IMG/VR virus record: IMGVR_UViG_3300044855_000244
Location: 1 to 34,639 of that record
Source: a virus
Length of the DNA stretch: 34,639 nt
Strand: one strand, 5' to 3'
The position numbers were made by a program, and so were the translations under genes. Under the pieces are notes generated by a model. It saw nothing but the letters and a program-made list of their open reading frames with translations, searched no databases and had not been told where the DNA came from. This document shows positions 2,636 to 28,086 of the stretch, one piece after another (positions within the stretch are counted from its first letter, which is position 1; each line of letters starts with the position of its first letter).

Positions 2636-2856
2636 ACGGCTACGCGAATCGAGCCACCTGGAACGTCGCGCTTTGGCTCTCGAACGACGAAGGGATCTAT
2701 ACGGCGCTCCGAGACCATTTCCGGTGCTCGACGCCGACGCCGCCTCGGGTCCGAGTCTTCTGCGAGCGGACGTTCGGGACCGAGACCCCCGACGGCGACA
2801 AGCTCTCGGCCGTGCAATGGAAGGAGATCTGTCGTACAGTGAAGGAGCTCCTATGA
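2632..2856 (+). CDS. Small phage protein with NRATWNVALWL motif, 74 aa
   Basis: The N-terminus NRATWNVALWLSNDEGIY matches a motif I know from many short phage and mobile-element proteins, in which a conserved Asn-Arg-x-Thr-Trp precedes a Leu-Trp-Leu-x-Asn stretch. Those proteins have no established function. The rest is a mixed region with two cysteines and a C-terminal helix (SAVQWKEICRTVKELL). It starts with GTG inside the stop of the zinc-ribbon gene and ends in an ATGA overlap with the helix-turn-helix gene, so the three are probably one translational unit. Family membership is from memory of the motif rather than a search. Confidence 0.75.
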   Translation: MNGYANRATWNVALWLSNDEGIYTALRDHFRCSTPTPPRVRVFCERTFGTETPDGDKLSAVQWKEICRTVKELL

Positions 2857-3059
2857 CCGGCACGAACGACAAGATCCTCTCGCCCGCTCAGGTCGCCGCC
2901 GAGATCGGGGTCCACATCGACACCGTCCGAGAGTGGATCCGAAGCGGCAAGCTCCCCGCCGCTCGACTCGGGTACCGGACGATCCGCATCCGTCGCGAAG
3001 ACCTCGATGCCTTCCTCGGAAAGGGCGGCACCGACCCCGGACCGACCGACCGCCGCTAA
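2853..3059 (+). CDS. Excisionase-like helix-turn-helix DNA-binding protein
   Basis: At 68 residues this has the size and shape of an Xis/AlpA-type MerR-like DNA-binding domain. Residues 8-30 (ILSPAQVAAEIGVHIDTVREWI) form the helix-turn-helix, followed by the typical RSGKLPAARLGYRTIRI wing and a final DLDAFL helix. Proteins of this class bend att DNA during excision or act as small regulators. An integrase gene is present about 22 kb away, so an excisionase role is plausible, but the distance also allows a transcription-regulator role. GAAGGAG lies 6-7 bases before the ATG. A strong hairpin terminator follows 25 bases after the stop, ending this operon. Confidence 0.85.
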   Translation: MTGTNDKILSPAQVAAEIGVHIDTVREWIRSGKLPAARLGYRTIRIRREDLDAFLGKGGTDPGPTDRR

Positions 3060-4027: not shown

Positions 4028-5060
4028 TCTCGCCTGGCGGCTGACCGATCTCGCGAAGATCGAGAAGCGGGGCGTGCGGGTGATGTCGACTTTCGCGTGC
4101 GGCGGCGGGTCGAGCATGGGCTACAAGCTCGCCGGTTGCGACATCGTCGCCGCGAACGACATCGATCCCGACATGGAGCACCACTACAAGTGGAATCTCC
4201 ATCCGCCCCTGTTCTATCGGTGCCCGATTCAGGACCTGGCCTCGATGCCGTTGCCCGGCGAGCTCGAGGATCTCGACATCCTCGACGGCTCGCCGCCCTG
4301 CTCGACCTTTAGCACGATCGGTCTTCGCGAATACGATTGGGGACGCGAGAAGAAGTTCCGCGAAGGTCAGGCCGTGCAGGTGCTGTCCGACCTGTTCTTC
4401 GACTGGCTCGCGCTCGTGAATCGACTCAGGCCGAAGGTCGCGATCGCCGAGAACGTCAAGGGGATGCTTCTCGGTCGCGCTCGAGGGTATGCCAAGCTCG
4501 TGATGGACAACCTGCGAGCGATGGGGTACCGGCCGCAGTGCTTCCTGCTCAACGCCGCCGACTGCGGGGTGCCGCAGACCCGGGAGCGCGTCTTCTTCTG
4601 CGCATTGCGCGAGGACATCGAGCGCCCGAAGCTCAGCATCGCGCCGAGGGCGAAATGGGTCACCGCATCGCAAGCACTCGCCGACCTCGGCAACATCACG
4701 GCCGACGAGCGCGAGGCGACGGCGTTCACGGAGCACATGCACTTCTGGTGGTCGCGAACGAAGCCAGGGAAGCACTTCGGCACCGCGAAGAAGGCGGCGG
4801 GACTTCGCGAGACGCAGTTCTCGAGCTACCGGCTCGCCGGAAACAAGCCTTGCATGACGATCGCATCGGGCGGCACCTATTGCCATTGGTCCGAGCGACG
4901 GCAACTCACGTTCCGGGAGATCAAGCGGCTCGGCTCGTTCCCCGACGACTATCAGGCCCGATCCGAGCGCATCGGCAAGTACATGGTCGGCATGTCCGTT
5001 CCGCCTCGACTCACGAAGGCCGTCGCCGATGCGGTGGTCGAGCAGTGGCTGAGACGCTGA
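4011..5060 (+). CDS. DNA (cytosine-5) methyltransferase, orphan phage type
   Basis: The conserved C5-methyltransferase motifs appear in order. Motif I is STFACGGGSS (around residues 26-35, the AdoMet site), motif IV is GSPPCSTF with catalytic Cys97, motif VI is the E147-N148-V149 triplet, motif VIII is QTRERVF (189-195), and motif X is GMSVPPRL near the end. The target recognition region between VIII and X is short, as in single-specificity phage enzymes. At 349 aa it is full length. No restriction endonuclease is adjacent, so it probably protects phage DNA from host restriction or marks it for other purposes. The ATG at 4011 overlaps the ParB-fold gene; a later ATG at 4083 would trim motif I's lead-in. 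Confidence 0.93.
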   Translation: MNPKNDLAWRLTDLAKIEKRGVRVMSTFACGGGSSMGYKLAGCDIVAANDIDPDMEHHYKWNLHPPLFYRCPIQDLASMPLPGELEDLDILDGSPPCSTFSTIGLREYDWGREKKFREGQAVQVLSDLFFDWLALVNRLRPKVAIAENVKGMLLGRARGYAKLVMDNLRAMGYRPQCFLLNAADCGVPQTRERVFFCALREDIERPKLSIAPRAKWVTASQALADLGNITADEREATAFTEHMHFWWSRTKPGKHFGTAKKAAGLRETQFSSYRLAGNKPCMTIASGGTYCHWSERRQLTFREIKRLGSFPDDYQARSERIGKYMVGMSVPPRLTKAVADAVVEQWLRR

Positions 5061-25377: not shown

Positions 25378-26553
25378 ATGGCTCGGCTTCGGCTCGTCGG
25401 CGTTGAATCGATTCGGGAAGATCTCGTGGGCGACATCGATGCATGGATCGAAGACTCGATCGACCGGCTCGGCCGCGATCGATACAGCGCCGCCAAGCAG
25501 GCGAGGATCGTCCTGCGCTTCGCTCGCGAGTCTGGCGTCCGTTCGCTCGAGGAGATCTCGGCGAGACTCGTCACCGCCTGGCTCGCGAGGATCGGTCACG
25601 AGGGCGCGGCGAGCCAGACTCGGGCCAATGCGCTTTCGGCGATCCGGTCTTTCGTCCGGTGGGCGGTCGAGGTCGAGCGGCTCGATGCGAATCCCCTCGA
25701 GCTCGTCCGGCTCGCCCGTCGCGAGCGATCGGGGCAGGGGGCGAGCGCGTTCACCGCCGACGAGGTCGCCGCGCTCGTGGCGATCGCGAGGCGGGACATC
25801 GAGGAGTCGAACCTCAGGCTCAGCAAGGGTGCGGACCTGCGGGCGACGCTGTACCTCGTGCTCGCCACGACCGGGCTTCGCATCGGCGAGGCGAGAACGC
25901 AGCGATGGGCCGACGTCGATCTCGAGCGGCGCTCGCTCGTCGTGACGCGAGACAAGGCTCGGCGTCGAGACTCGATCCCGTTGTGCGAGGAAGCCGTCGA
26001 GGTGCTGAGGTGGTGGCGGTCTCGATGCGAAGGCCCGTTGGTCTTCGCGATGGTCCCGACGCATCGCACCCTCGAGCGGGACATGCGTCGATGCGGCATC
26101 GAGTCGGGCGCGGGCCAGTGGCATCGATTCAGGAAGGCGGCCATCACGATCCGGGCCGAGGCGGGCGTGCCGATGTGGGACCTGACTCGACTCGCCCGCC
26201 ATGTCGACCCGCGAACGACCCTCCGCTACGTGACCGCCCGCGACGAGGCGCTCGCGAGGGCGGCCGAGGCGATGCCGAGGCTTGTGGTTGAAACGACTCT
26301 AAGCCTCGAAGGTCGAGAATCCTCGCCAGAATCGACGCGGGGATCGCGACCCGGGAAAATGTGCGTGCCAGGGGGTTTGCAAGCCGAGAGAAGCACGGTA
26401 TTACCCGCAGCGTCTCGTGGCTCGGCAAAGTGGAGCCGGGGGGATTCGATCCCCCGCACTGAAGCCGAGCCTCAAGGTCCACAGGACCGGAAAGGCTCGA
26501 ATGATTACGGCACGACAGAAGGAAGCCAGGAAGAGCGGCATCGGCTCGAGTGA
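25378..26553 (+). CDS. int: Tyrosine-family site-specific integrase, 391 aa with an extended C-terminus
   Basis: All catalytic residues are present in order: Arg168 in TTGLRIGEA, His249 and Arg252 in WHRFRKAA, His275 in ARHVDPRTTLRY, and the nucleophile Tyr284. The N-terminal 110 residues form the SAM-like core-binding domain (SAAKQARIVLRFARESG, TRANALSAIRSFVRWAVE). Related enzymes end 20-40 residues after the tyrosine; here 107 follow. They are low-complexity and are translated from DNA that includes the tRNA/tmRNA-like attP candidate and the ribosome binding site and start of the exonuclease gene. The ATG has a perfect AAAGGAGG. The tail may be unstructured or functionless, but integration would change it. 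Being on the same strand as all other genes is notable. Confidence 0.92.
   Translation: MARLRLVGVESIREDLVGDIDAWIEDSIDRLGRDRYSAAKQARIVLRFARESGVRSLEEISARLVTAWLARIGHEGAASQTRANALSAIRSFVRWAVEVERLDANPLELVRLARRERSGQGASAFTADEVAALVAIARRDIEESNLRLSKGADLRATLYLVLATTGLRIGEARTQRWADVDLERRSLVVTRDKARRRDSIPLCEEAVEVLRWWRSRCEGPLVFAMVPTHRTLERDMRRCGIESGAGQWHRFRKAAITIRAEAGVPMWDLTRLARHVDPRTTLRYVTARDEALARAAEAMPRLVVETTLSLEGRESSPESTRGSRPGKMCVPGGLQAERSTVLPAASRGSAKWSRGDSIPRTEAEPQGPQDRKGSNDYGTTEGSQEERHRLE
26430..26459 (-). other. Candidate attP core: tRNA/tmRNA 3'-end-like sequence inside the integrase gene
   Basis: On the minus strand this reads as a T-arm and acceptor 3' strand: GGGGG, loop ATCGAAT, CCCCC, then CGGCTCC and A. 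Bacterial tmRNA and some tRNAs (for example tRNA-Tyr) end in TCCACCA after such an arm; here TCCAC is followed by TTT, so no encoded CCA. No complete tRNA or tmRNA surrounds it. Tyrosine integrases commonly use the 3' end of a tRNA or tmRNA gene as attB, with attP next to int. The match is only to the T-arm and acceptor, and the loop differs from consensus at its first position. A second copy is not found in the window, fitting attP or a permuted genome. Confidence 0.55.
26466..26499 (+). promoter_or_regulatory. Hairpin covering the exonuclease ribosome binding site
   Basis: CGAGCCT (26466-26472) pairs with AGGCTCG (26493-26499), and within it GGTCC (26476-26480) pairs with GGACC (26484-26488) around ACA. 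The Shine-Dalgarno-like GGAAAGG (26489-26495) lies in the outer 3' arm and inner bulge, so the folded RNA would hide it from ribosomes. It begins 7 bases after the candidate attP core. Confidence 0.55.
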
Positions 26554-27406
26554 TGCCGCCGCGATCATGGGTCTCGACCCGTATCGCACCGCCCACGATG
26601 TGTGGCTCGAGAAGACCGGACGCGTCGACGGATTCGAGGCGGGCGAGAAGGCGGAGCTCGGCAACGCGCTCGAGCGAGGTCTTCTGAAGCTCGTCGGTCG
26701 TCGCATCAACGACACCGTCCGAGCGCCGCGATGGTCGTTCGTTCGCGGTCGAATGCGGGCGAACATCGACGGCATGGTCGGCGAGCCACAGAAGGGCGCG
26801 CCGATCGTCGAGGTGAAGACCACCGGACTCGTCGACGGTTGGGGTCCCGACAACTCCGCGGAGATCCCCGATCGCGTGCTCGTCCAGGTGCACCATCAGA
26901 TGTGGTGTGCCGAGTCCGATCGCGGATTCGTCGCATGCCTTCGCGCCTTCCGCGGGCTCGAGCTCACGATCCATCCCGTGCGGATCGACCCCGATCTCTC
27001 GACCCGGATCGTCGAGTCGTGCGAGCGCTTCTGGAAGGACAACGTGCTTCGCGACAAGCCGCCCGAAGGCTCTGTCGGATCGCTCGACACGCTCGCGAAG
27101 GTCAAGCGCAACGGGGCGAGCATCAAGCTCGCCGAGCCGACGATGCAGGTCGTGCGACGGTATGTCGAGGCTCGCGAGGTCATGTCGAAGTGGGAGCGCG
27201 AGTGTGAAGACCTGAAGGCCGCGATCATCACCGCGCTCGGCGATGCCGAGCATGCCGACGCGGGCGACTTCACCGTCTCCTACAAGGCGAGCGAGTCGAA
27301 CCGGATCAACACCGATCGACTCCGGCGCGAGCACCCCGACATCGCGGCGACCGTCACGATGCCGGTGATGACGCGGCGCTTCGAGTGCAAGGCGGTGCGT
27401 CGATGA
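26501..27406 (+). CDS. YqaJ/lambda Exo-type alkaline exonuclease, 301 aa
   Basis: The YqaJ nuclease motifs are seen: GIGSSDAAAIMGLDPY (residues 13-28), a glutamate in ELGNALERG, Asp90 in ANIDGMVG, and Glu104-x-Lys106 in IVEVKTT. VLVQVHHQMWC follows. This is the PD-(D/E)xK layout. Lambda Exo-like proteins digest one DNA strand from an end to give 3' single strands for annealing. The partner ERF gene lies directly downstream. The C-terminal 100 residues are helical (EAREVMSKWERECEDLKAAII). The gene starts 53 bases before the end of the integrase frame, behind a hairpin that could hide its ribosome binding site. It probably works in phage recombination and replication. Confidence 0.9.
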   Translation: MITARQKEARKSGIGSSDAAAIMGLDPYRTAHDVWLEKTGRVDGFEAGEKAELGNALERGLLKLVGRRINDTVRAPRWSFVRGRMRANIDGMVGEPQKGAPIVEVKTTGLVDGWGPDNSAEIPDRVLVQVHHQMWCAESDRGFVACLRAFRGLELTIHPVRIDPDLSTRIVESCERFWKDNVLRDKPPEGSVGSLDTLAKVKRNGASIKLAEPTMQVVRRYVEAREVMSKWERECEDLKAAIITALGDAEHADAGDFTVSYKASESNRINTDRLRREHPDIAATVTMPVMTRRFECKAVRR

Positions 27407-28086
27407 AGGCAGTTCAAGCAGCATTCGTTGCCGCGCTAGGCGAGATCCGCAACCCGGCATTTGATCGAGTCAATACGGCATTCGGCAAGGGCGGTTTCCA
27501 GTATGCATCGCTGGCGTCGTTCGTCGAGGCGGCTCGCGAGGCACTGACCCGGCATAAGTTGGCGCTCGTTCAGCCGATCTTTCCCATCGGTCTCTGTTCC
27601 CGATGTATGACCGGCGACGGTCACTACCTCGAGATCCAGACGCGGGTCCTGCACGAGTCGGGCGAGATCCTTGAACTGGGAAGGTTCCCGTTCATGCCTG
27701 ATGCCTCCAAGCCGCAGTCCGTCGGAGCGACCCTGACCTACTTCCGTCGCTATGCGTTGGCCGCGGCACTGGGGATCGTGGCAGACGAGGATCAGGACGG
27801 CAACGATGCCGTGACGAAGCGCAAGCCGCAGCCGAAGGTGGAAACGTTACCACCCGCGGCCGATGTCCCGCTCGGTCTCGCGCTCGCGAGCGAGCTCAAG
27901 GCGAAGCTTCGTGACCGCGATCTCGCGCTCGAGGATCTCCACAAGGCGCTCGTCGGCGAAGGGCTTCTCGGCGTGCGAGGCGTCCCGCTGTCGCTCGATC
28001 CCGCGGAGTGGCCGACGGGGCATCGGCGTCGCATCGGCGAGTGGATGCGAGACAACGCGAAGCCGCCGAAGGTCGAGCCATCCTGA
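27403..28086 (+). CDS. ERF-family single-strand annealing protein, 227 aa
   Basis: The ERF signature appears as YASLASFVEAAREALTRHKLAL (near residues 34-55) and KPQSVGATLTYFRRYALAAALG followed by IVADEDQDGNDA (near 105-138). ERF-like recombinases anneal complementary single strands made by the exonuclease, whose gene overlaps this one by 4 bases. The linker after DGNDA is charged, and the C-terminal 70 residues form a helical domain (ALASELKAKLRDRDLALEDL) that may contact other phage proteins. The first 250 bases use more GCA, GTT and TTG codons than neighbouring genes, which suggests it came from another source. A terminator follows the stop by about 15 bases. Confidence 0.92.
   Translation: MKAVQAAFVAALGEIRNPAFDRVNTAFGKGGFQYASLASFVEAAREALTRHKLALVQPIFPIGLCSRCMTGDGHYLEIQTRVLHESGEILELGRFPFMPDASKPQSVGATLTYFRRYALAAALGIVADEDQDGNDAVTKRKPQPKVETLPPAADVPLGLALASELKAKLRDRDLALEDLHKALVGEGLLGVRGVPLSLDPAEWPTGHRRRIGEWMRDNAKPPKVEPS

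Follow-up and report, generated by a model that had tools for sequence, protein, structure and literature searches.

The window analysed here is a stretch of 34,639 nucleotides from a virus record (IMG/VR IMGVR_UViG_3300044855_000244), in which a tyrosine integrase gene is followed by genes for a YqaJ-type exonuclease and an ERF-type single-strand annealing protein. The features at this locus, together with one small gene lying elsewhere in the window, are as follows.

25378..26553, + strand: tyrosine integrase ORF, phage form, 391 aa, reading through attP
25750..26244, + strand: integrase catalytic domain, residues 125–289 (PF00589)
26227..26229, + strand: codon of the catalytic Tyr284
26284..26429, + strand: open tail from the catalytic domain to the att core, putative P arm
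26419..26471: 8-bp inverted repeat GGCTCGGC/GCCGAGCC around the att core
26425..26456, − strand: attP identity with a host tmRNA 3' end (31/32 bases to locus L038)
26430..26459: putative att core, the 30-mer of the preliminary description, codons 351–361 (WSRGDSIPR)
26460..26553, + strand: phage-encoded integrase end after the core, 30 aa, without the int(C) motif described below
26501..27406, + strand: YqaJ-type exonuclease gene (PF09588)
27403..28086, + strand: ERF-type single-strand annealing protein gene (PF04404)
2853..3059, + strand: small HTH_17/MerR-like protein, candidate excisionase (recombination directionality factor; PF12728, 2e-14)

Residues 125–289 of the window integrase matched Phage_integrase in Pfam (PF00589, 2e-17), and the R-K-H-R-H-Y catalytic set of this domain is complete, R168, K193, H249, R252, H275 and Y284 all being invariant relative to the integrase of a second phage (L002). 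The family catalytic profile was matched as well, the Planctomycetota integrase profile recognising the window protein at 1.2e-33. The preliminary description had placed the 30-mer well after the catalytic tyrosine and had proposed it as an attP candidate inside the integrase frame. Its coordinates and anatomy proved correct, with the core sitting 67 codons past Tyr284 and the ORF open through it, and the exonuclease gene does begin 41 bases past the 30-mer (ATG at 26501). The integrase end beyond the core overlaps the first 53 bases of that gene. GC by codon position was 0.70/0.53/0.84 in the catalytic part and 0.62/0.67/0.52 in the pre-core tail, where the codon bias of the integrase gene is missing. 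AlphaFold, given a two-row alignment, produced a poor model of the window integrase, with a tail pLDDT of about 30.

The inverted repeat around the core is perfect, and the fold of the attP region has a z of −2.4. The entire attP can form one hairpin in the integrase mRNA, a structure that would belong to the attP form only and be broken by integration. The HTH_17 protein is the natural excisionase candidate of the window phage; its gene is distant from the integrase gene. A C5 cytosine DNA methylase gene (4083–5057, + strand; PF00145, 5e-45) lies directly upstream of the terminase genes.

The putative attachment core and the host tmRNA gene

Read on the minus strand, the 30-mer is GTGCGGGGGATCGAATCCCCCCGGCTCCAC and comprises a T-stem, a T-loop and an acceptor strand ending in CGGCTCCA. 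As the preliminary description had proposed, host genomes were searched for it. An exact 28-base stretch of the 30-mer occurred in 0 of 84,980 species genomes, and a 25-mer with T-loop position 54 left free was found in 68 stretches, nearly all of which ARAGORN identified as tmRNA genes or tRNA-Ala genes. The Phycisphaerales (Planctomycetota) stretches are tmRNA genes with no encoded CCA, the same as in the phage, and those of Dehalococcoidales and Thermaceae are tRNA-Ala genes, mostly with CCA. The best host match, at locus L038 of genome G001, covers 31 of 32 bases and includes the 3' flank CTTTGC past the gene end; the single mismatch falls in the T-loop. What had been described as a tRNA/tmRNA 3'-end-like 30-mer can thus be named an antisense tmRNA 3' end. 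Rfam returned only sub-threshold matches for the window region, among them a 10-bit tmRNA fragment.

The phage terminase has relatives 43–47% identical in genomes of the same host class, and its best cultured-phage matches show 36–38% identity. Taken together, the tmRNA match and the terminase relatives in the same class make a Planctomycetota host, with the tmRNA gene as the probable target of the window phage, well supported on sequence grounds. No integrated copy of this phage turned up; it is represented by its IMG/VR record.

The integrase frame across the core in related elements

Taking only the window, 13% of shuffles of the same composition left the frame open all the way from Tyr284 through the core. 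By itself the open frame is not beyond chance and proves little. It may be that in this phage the frame crosses attP by accident, in GC-rich DNA with no stop before the core, and that the tail is functionless. The tail without codon bias, the lack of int(C) in the window, and the long open frames that also run into the tmRNA core at integrase-free host loci all agree with such an accident. However, the second phage has the same in-frame layout: its integrase, 40% identical to that of the window, reads ...EEWSRGELNPR... in frame through the core, and YqaJ again lies downstream. Against chance stand also the related integrases surveyed below, and we consider this explanation possible, at odds of somewhat less than even.

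For the family survey, the window integrase was searched against 298 host-class genomes, of which 76 gave matches, and the counted set consisted of 66 integrases with a convergent tRNA/tmRNA gene within 700 bases. The integrase frame was open past the RNA 3' end in 61 of the 66, where composition expects 5.4. The other frames were open to the RNA 3' end in 13/66 (+1) and 4/66 (+2). When integrases were clustered at 60% identity, the frame was open in 46 of 51 clusters, and among Verrucomicrobiota it was open in six of seven. Five of the 66 related integrases terminate before att. As far as these sequences go, keeping the frame open through att is a rule of the family in related integrases, far from chance.

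Alphaproteobacteria and Chloroflexota, taken as controls, yielded zero convergent integrase/tRNA pairs, and DLP12 of E. coli and IMG/VR integrases were used in their place. The intD gene of DLP12, of the classical convergent type, also encodes a tyrosine integrase aimed at a tRNA 3' end, but its stop lies 15 bases before argU. In IMG/VR, a further nine convergent integrases with a tmRNA-like core nearby likewise stop short of it, so the open-frame rule is not universal. At five loci (L087, L141, L150, L165 and L523), integrase or int(C) ORFs pass through a tRNA gene in the sense direction, suggesting that the arrangement also exists in the opposite polarity.

Throughout the integrase family, tRNA/tmRNA cores occupy the same place. 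The tails before them are weakly constrained at the protein level (dN/dS 0.3–1.35), and an in-frame [AK]TGT[DCY]D motif, with third positions free, occurs about 29 residues past the Tyr in 37 of 66. Compared with the catalytic part, the tails often show stronger conservation at third codon positions, which is what P-arm DNA sites overlapping the coding tail would produce. Cys occurs in the pre-core tails at about 4.6 times its frequency in the catalytic domain (66 integrase tails, L085–L187).

Two candidates for the selected part were rejected. A fixed peptide from the core does not fit, all three T-arm frames being in use across the family, and neither does the host-encoded tail, for within the antisense RNA gene the integrase frame does not outrun the other two (length ranks 18/29/14; median 59 vs 64 bases). 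In the preliminary description, a host-encoded tail replaces the last 30–40 residues of the integrase. One correction applies: no frame selection was seen on this tail, and the conserved part is on the phage side, beyond att.

A conserved integrase ending beyond the core

The circular form of related elements was rebuilt in silico by joining the integrase to the DNA after the displaced core copy, 4–38 kb away, and the long integrase forms described here derive only from this joining of both element ends. In 11 elements the integrase frame runs 71–123 codons from the core start to a conserved ending, int(C), with the consensus DxxLAxLIxAWPxLPxxIRxGIxAMV. When applied to held-out elements, the int(C) profile detected this ending in the correct frame in four of six (L113, L117, L182 and L186); the endings of the other two, L098 and L119, are weaker look-alikes. 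Altogether, of 17 relatives whose far-end core copy could be used, 15 continue in frame past the core into int(C). No int(C) was found for L173, whose integrase stops before the core. Elements without a recovered copy of the core at the far end yielded no int(C) either, which need not mean that they lack it.

Identity in int(C) by codon position is 0.46/0.61/0.33, which shows conservation as protein. AlphaFold predicted a confident two-helix hairpin (block-mean pLDDT 83–95) preceded by a disordered linker. No matching family was found for int(C) in Pfam, PHROGs or NCBIfam.

Three displaced tmRNA 3' fragments, picked out purely by pattern (L018, L026 and L058, all Phycisphaerae), each have int(C) after them. 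Matches to the profile occur in 195 of the 298 host-class genomes. At 24 of the best 30 int(C) loci an antisense T-arm lies 80–210 bases upstream in the same ORF, against a background of 9% per 300 bases, and at none of these 30 is int(C) fused to an integrase. A search of viral contigs for a contiguous natural integrase with int(C) found none.

Genome G001 apparently carries an integrated element within its tmRNA gene, seen across contigs C1 and C8 (L038/L280 and L058/L281): the intact tmRNA lies by the end of one contig, and the displaced 3' fragment with int(C) by the end of another. At L140, L149, L295, L513 and L519 an integrase and int(C) flank a single core or lie close to it, but not in the same ORF or frame; these are probably tandem elements of different frame types sharing one tRNA gene. 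Elements with a split integrase can be as small as about 4–10 kb (L177 with L344/L345; L111 with L329). Going by a reading of their sequences, one of these two is defence-island-like, with a large helicase/restriction-like subunit and a Fic-like protein, and the other encodes a primase-helicase-like protein.

It could be argued that the open frame serves only to let ribosomes travel over the attP part of the transcript, sparing the downstream recombination genes transcription termination (polarity). The YqaJ and ERF genes do lie directly downstream in the window phage, and the missing frame selection on the host-encoded part agrees with a role of this kind. Such a role does not account for a conserved int(C) lying in frame beyond the core, however, and we regard it as improbable.

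Alternatively, the far junction might give rise to int(C) as a small protein in its own right, such as a directionality factor, which shares the integrase frame only by coincidence. This would suit a short sequence located at the end of the element, but in 15 of 15 elements where the profile supports int(C), the integrase frame carries on through the core into it, and the DNA upstream of the core at the far junction is host DNA. Moreover, 12 of the 15 linkers between core and int(C) contain no Met, so int(C) is unlikely to be a separate gene, and we give this explanation very little credence. Hardly any weight attaches, finally, to the idea that the 30-mer is a hairpin or terminator-like element of the integrase message and no attachment site: the flanking inverted repeat and stable fold would allow it, but it is opposed by the near-complete identity with a host tmRNA, the absence of a T run after the 30-mer, the constant place of tRNA/tmRNA cores in the family, and the far-end repeat copies in those elements where one was found.

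A proposed split of the integrase upon integration

The reading that we favour, with a probability of roughly three in four, is that the attP core lies in the 3' frame of the integrase, that integration trims the integrase C-terminus, and that the severed int(C) is present in most Planctomycetota relatives. It builds on the site, the frame, the family rule, the conserved int(C) and the separation of int(C) from the integrase in chromosomes, each established from DNA sequence. The 30-mer of the window would serve as attP core for a Planctomycetota phage whose insertion point is the 3' end (T-loop) of the tmRNA gene. Before integration, the integrase would be translated across attP and finish in phage-encoded residues. 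Integration would sever the gene past the catalytic domain, leaving the catalytic part whole at one junction, where it would gain whatever tail the antisense tmRNA encodes, and the phage-encoded end would be stranded at the other junction with no start codon.

In most related Planctomycetota elements this severed end would be the conserved two-helix int(C). Since the frame crosses the core into int(C), integration would remove a conserved C-terminus and leave it at the far end of the element; and because the gene is cut at att, the long integrase form would exist only in the circular element. We infer that translation does yield this long form, that integration or its control benefits from int(C), and that losing int(C) helps the element stay integrated. 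The use of int(C) would likely be in controlling the direction of recombination or the stability of the integrated state.

For the window phage and the sampled Phycisphaerales tmRNAs, the predicted hybrid integrases after integration are 364–426 aa long, in keeping with the earlier expectation that a host-encoded tail replaces the integrase C-terminus. The preliminary description had also suggested a built-in switch. This idea holds in part: a switch is possible because relatives keep the frame open to att and lose a conserved C-terminal piece on integration, but neither the window nor L002 gave a match to the int(C) profile, and with int(C) not recognisable only a reduced version of the switch could apply in the window phage. 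With less assurance than for the main reading, we lean towards a wider proposal. Planctomycetota, and possibly more of the PVC group, may hold a large class of tyrosine integrases whose genes are severed on integration, in which a conserved C-terminal helical hairpin, present in the circular form only, serves as an integrated-or-free switch; the window phage would be a derived member whose hairpin was lost or replaced.

Self-disrupting integrases have been described as exclusively archaeal (review PMC8371274). The archaeal SSV-type 'suicidal' tyrosine integrases are alike in that att lies inside the integrase gene and integration splits the gene (PMC8371274). There the N-terminal part and the catalytic domain come apart and neither half is active, whereas here the catalytic domain would stay whole and a C-terminal piece would be lost; with att so far past Tyr284, the catalytic C-terminal part is not separated from the N-terminal one. 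The Planctomycetota case is, in addition, bacterial and concerns an ordinary PF00589 integrase.

In the integration-dependent immunity system of mycobacteriophage BPs, attP likewise lies inside a regulatory gene, and the prophage protein is C-terminally shortened and the viral one longer (PMC4557955). In BPs it is the repressor gene that is split, with loss of a C-terminal ssrA-like degradation tag (PMC4557955). In the window, by contrast, attP lies in the integrase ORF, and the end to be lost would be a conserved helical hairpin in the relatives or, in the window, an unconserved tail. The window tail ends in RHRLE and int(C) in, for example, EASKA or AASK, both unlike ALAA tags by sequence. 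The DsiB serine integrase of Dehalococcoides ssrA islands has a frame that overlaps attL at the tmRNA 3' end, with its stop only beyond the island (PMC3146451). It differs in being a serine recombinase and in that no conserved far-side domain was reported; the function of the overlap was left open by its authors (PMC3146451). In the open-access literature we came across no description of a bacterial tyrosine integrase from which its own att site severs a conserved C-terminal domain.

The arrangement would represent a widespread bacterial counterpart of the self-splitting integrases, one that spares the catalytic domain and takes away a conserved C-terminal piece. It would explain the odd tRNA-antisense peptides, such as WSRGDSNPR, that end such integrases, and in phyla about which little is known, orphan int(C) ORFs may serve as a marker for the far ends of integrated elements. 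An integrase cut by its own integration may also be a simple answer to the question of how an element senses that it is integrated.
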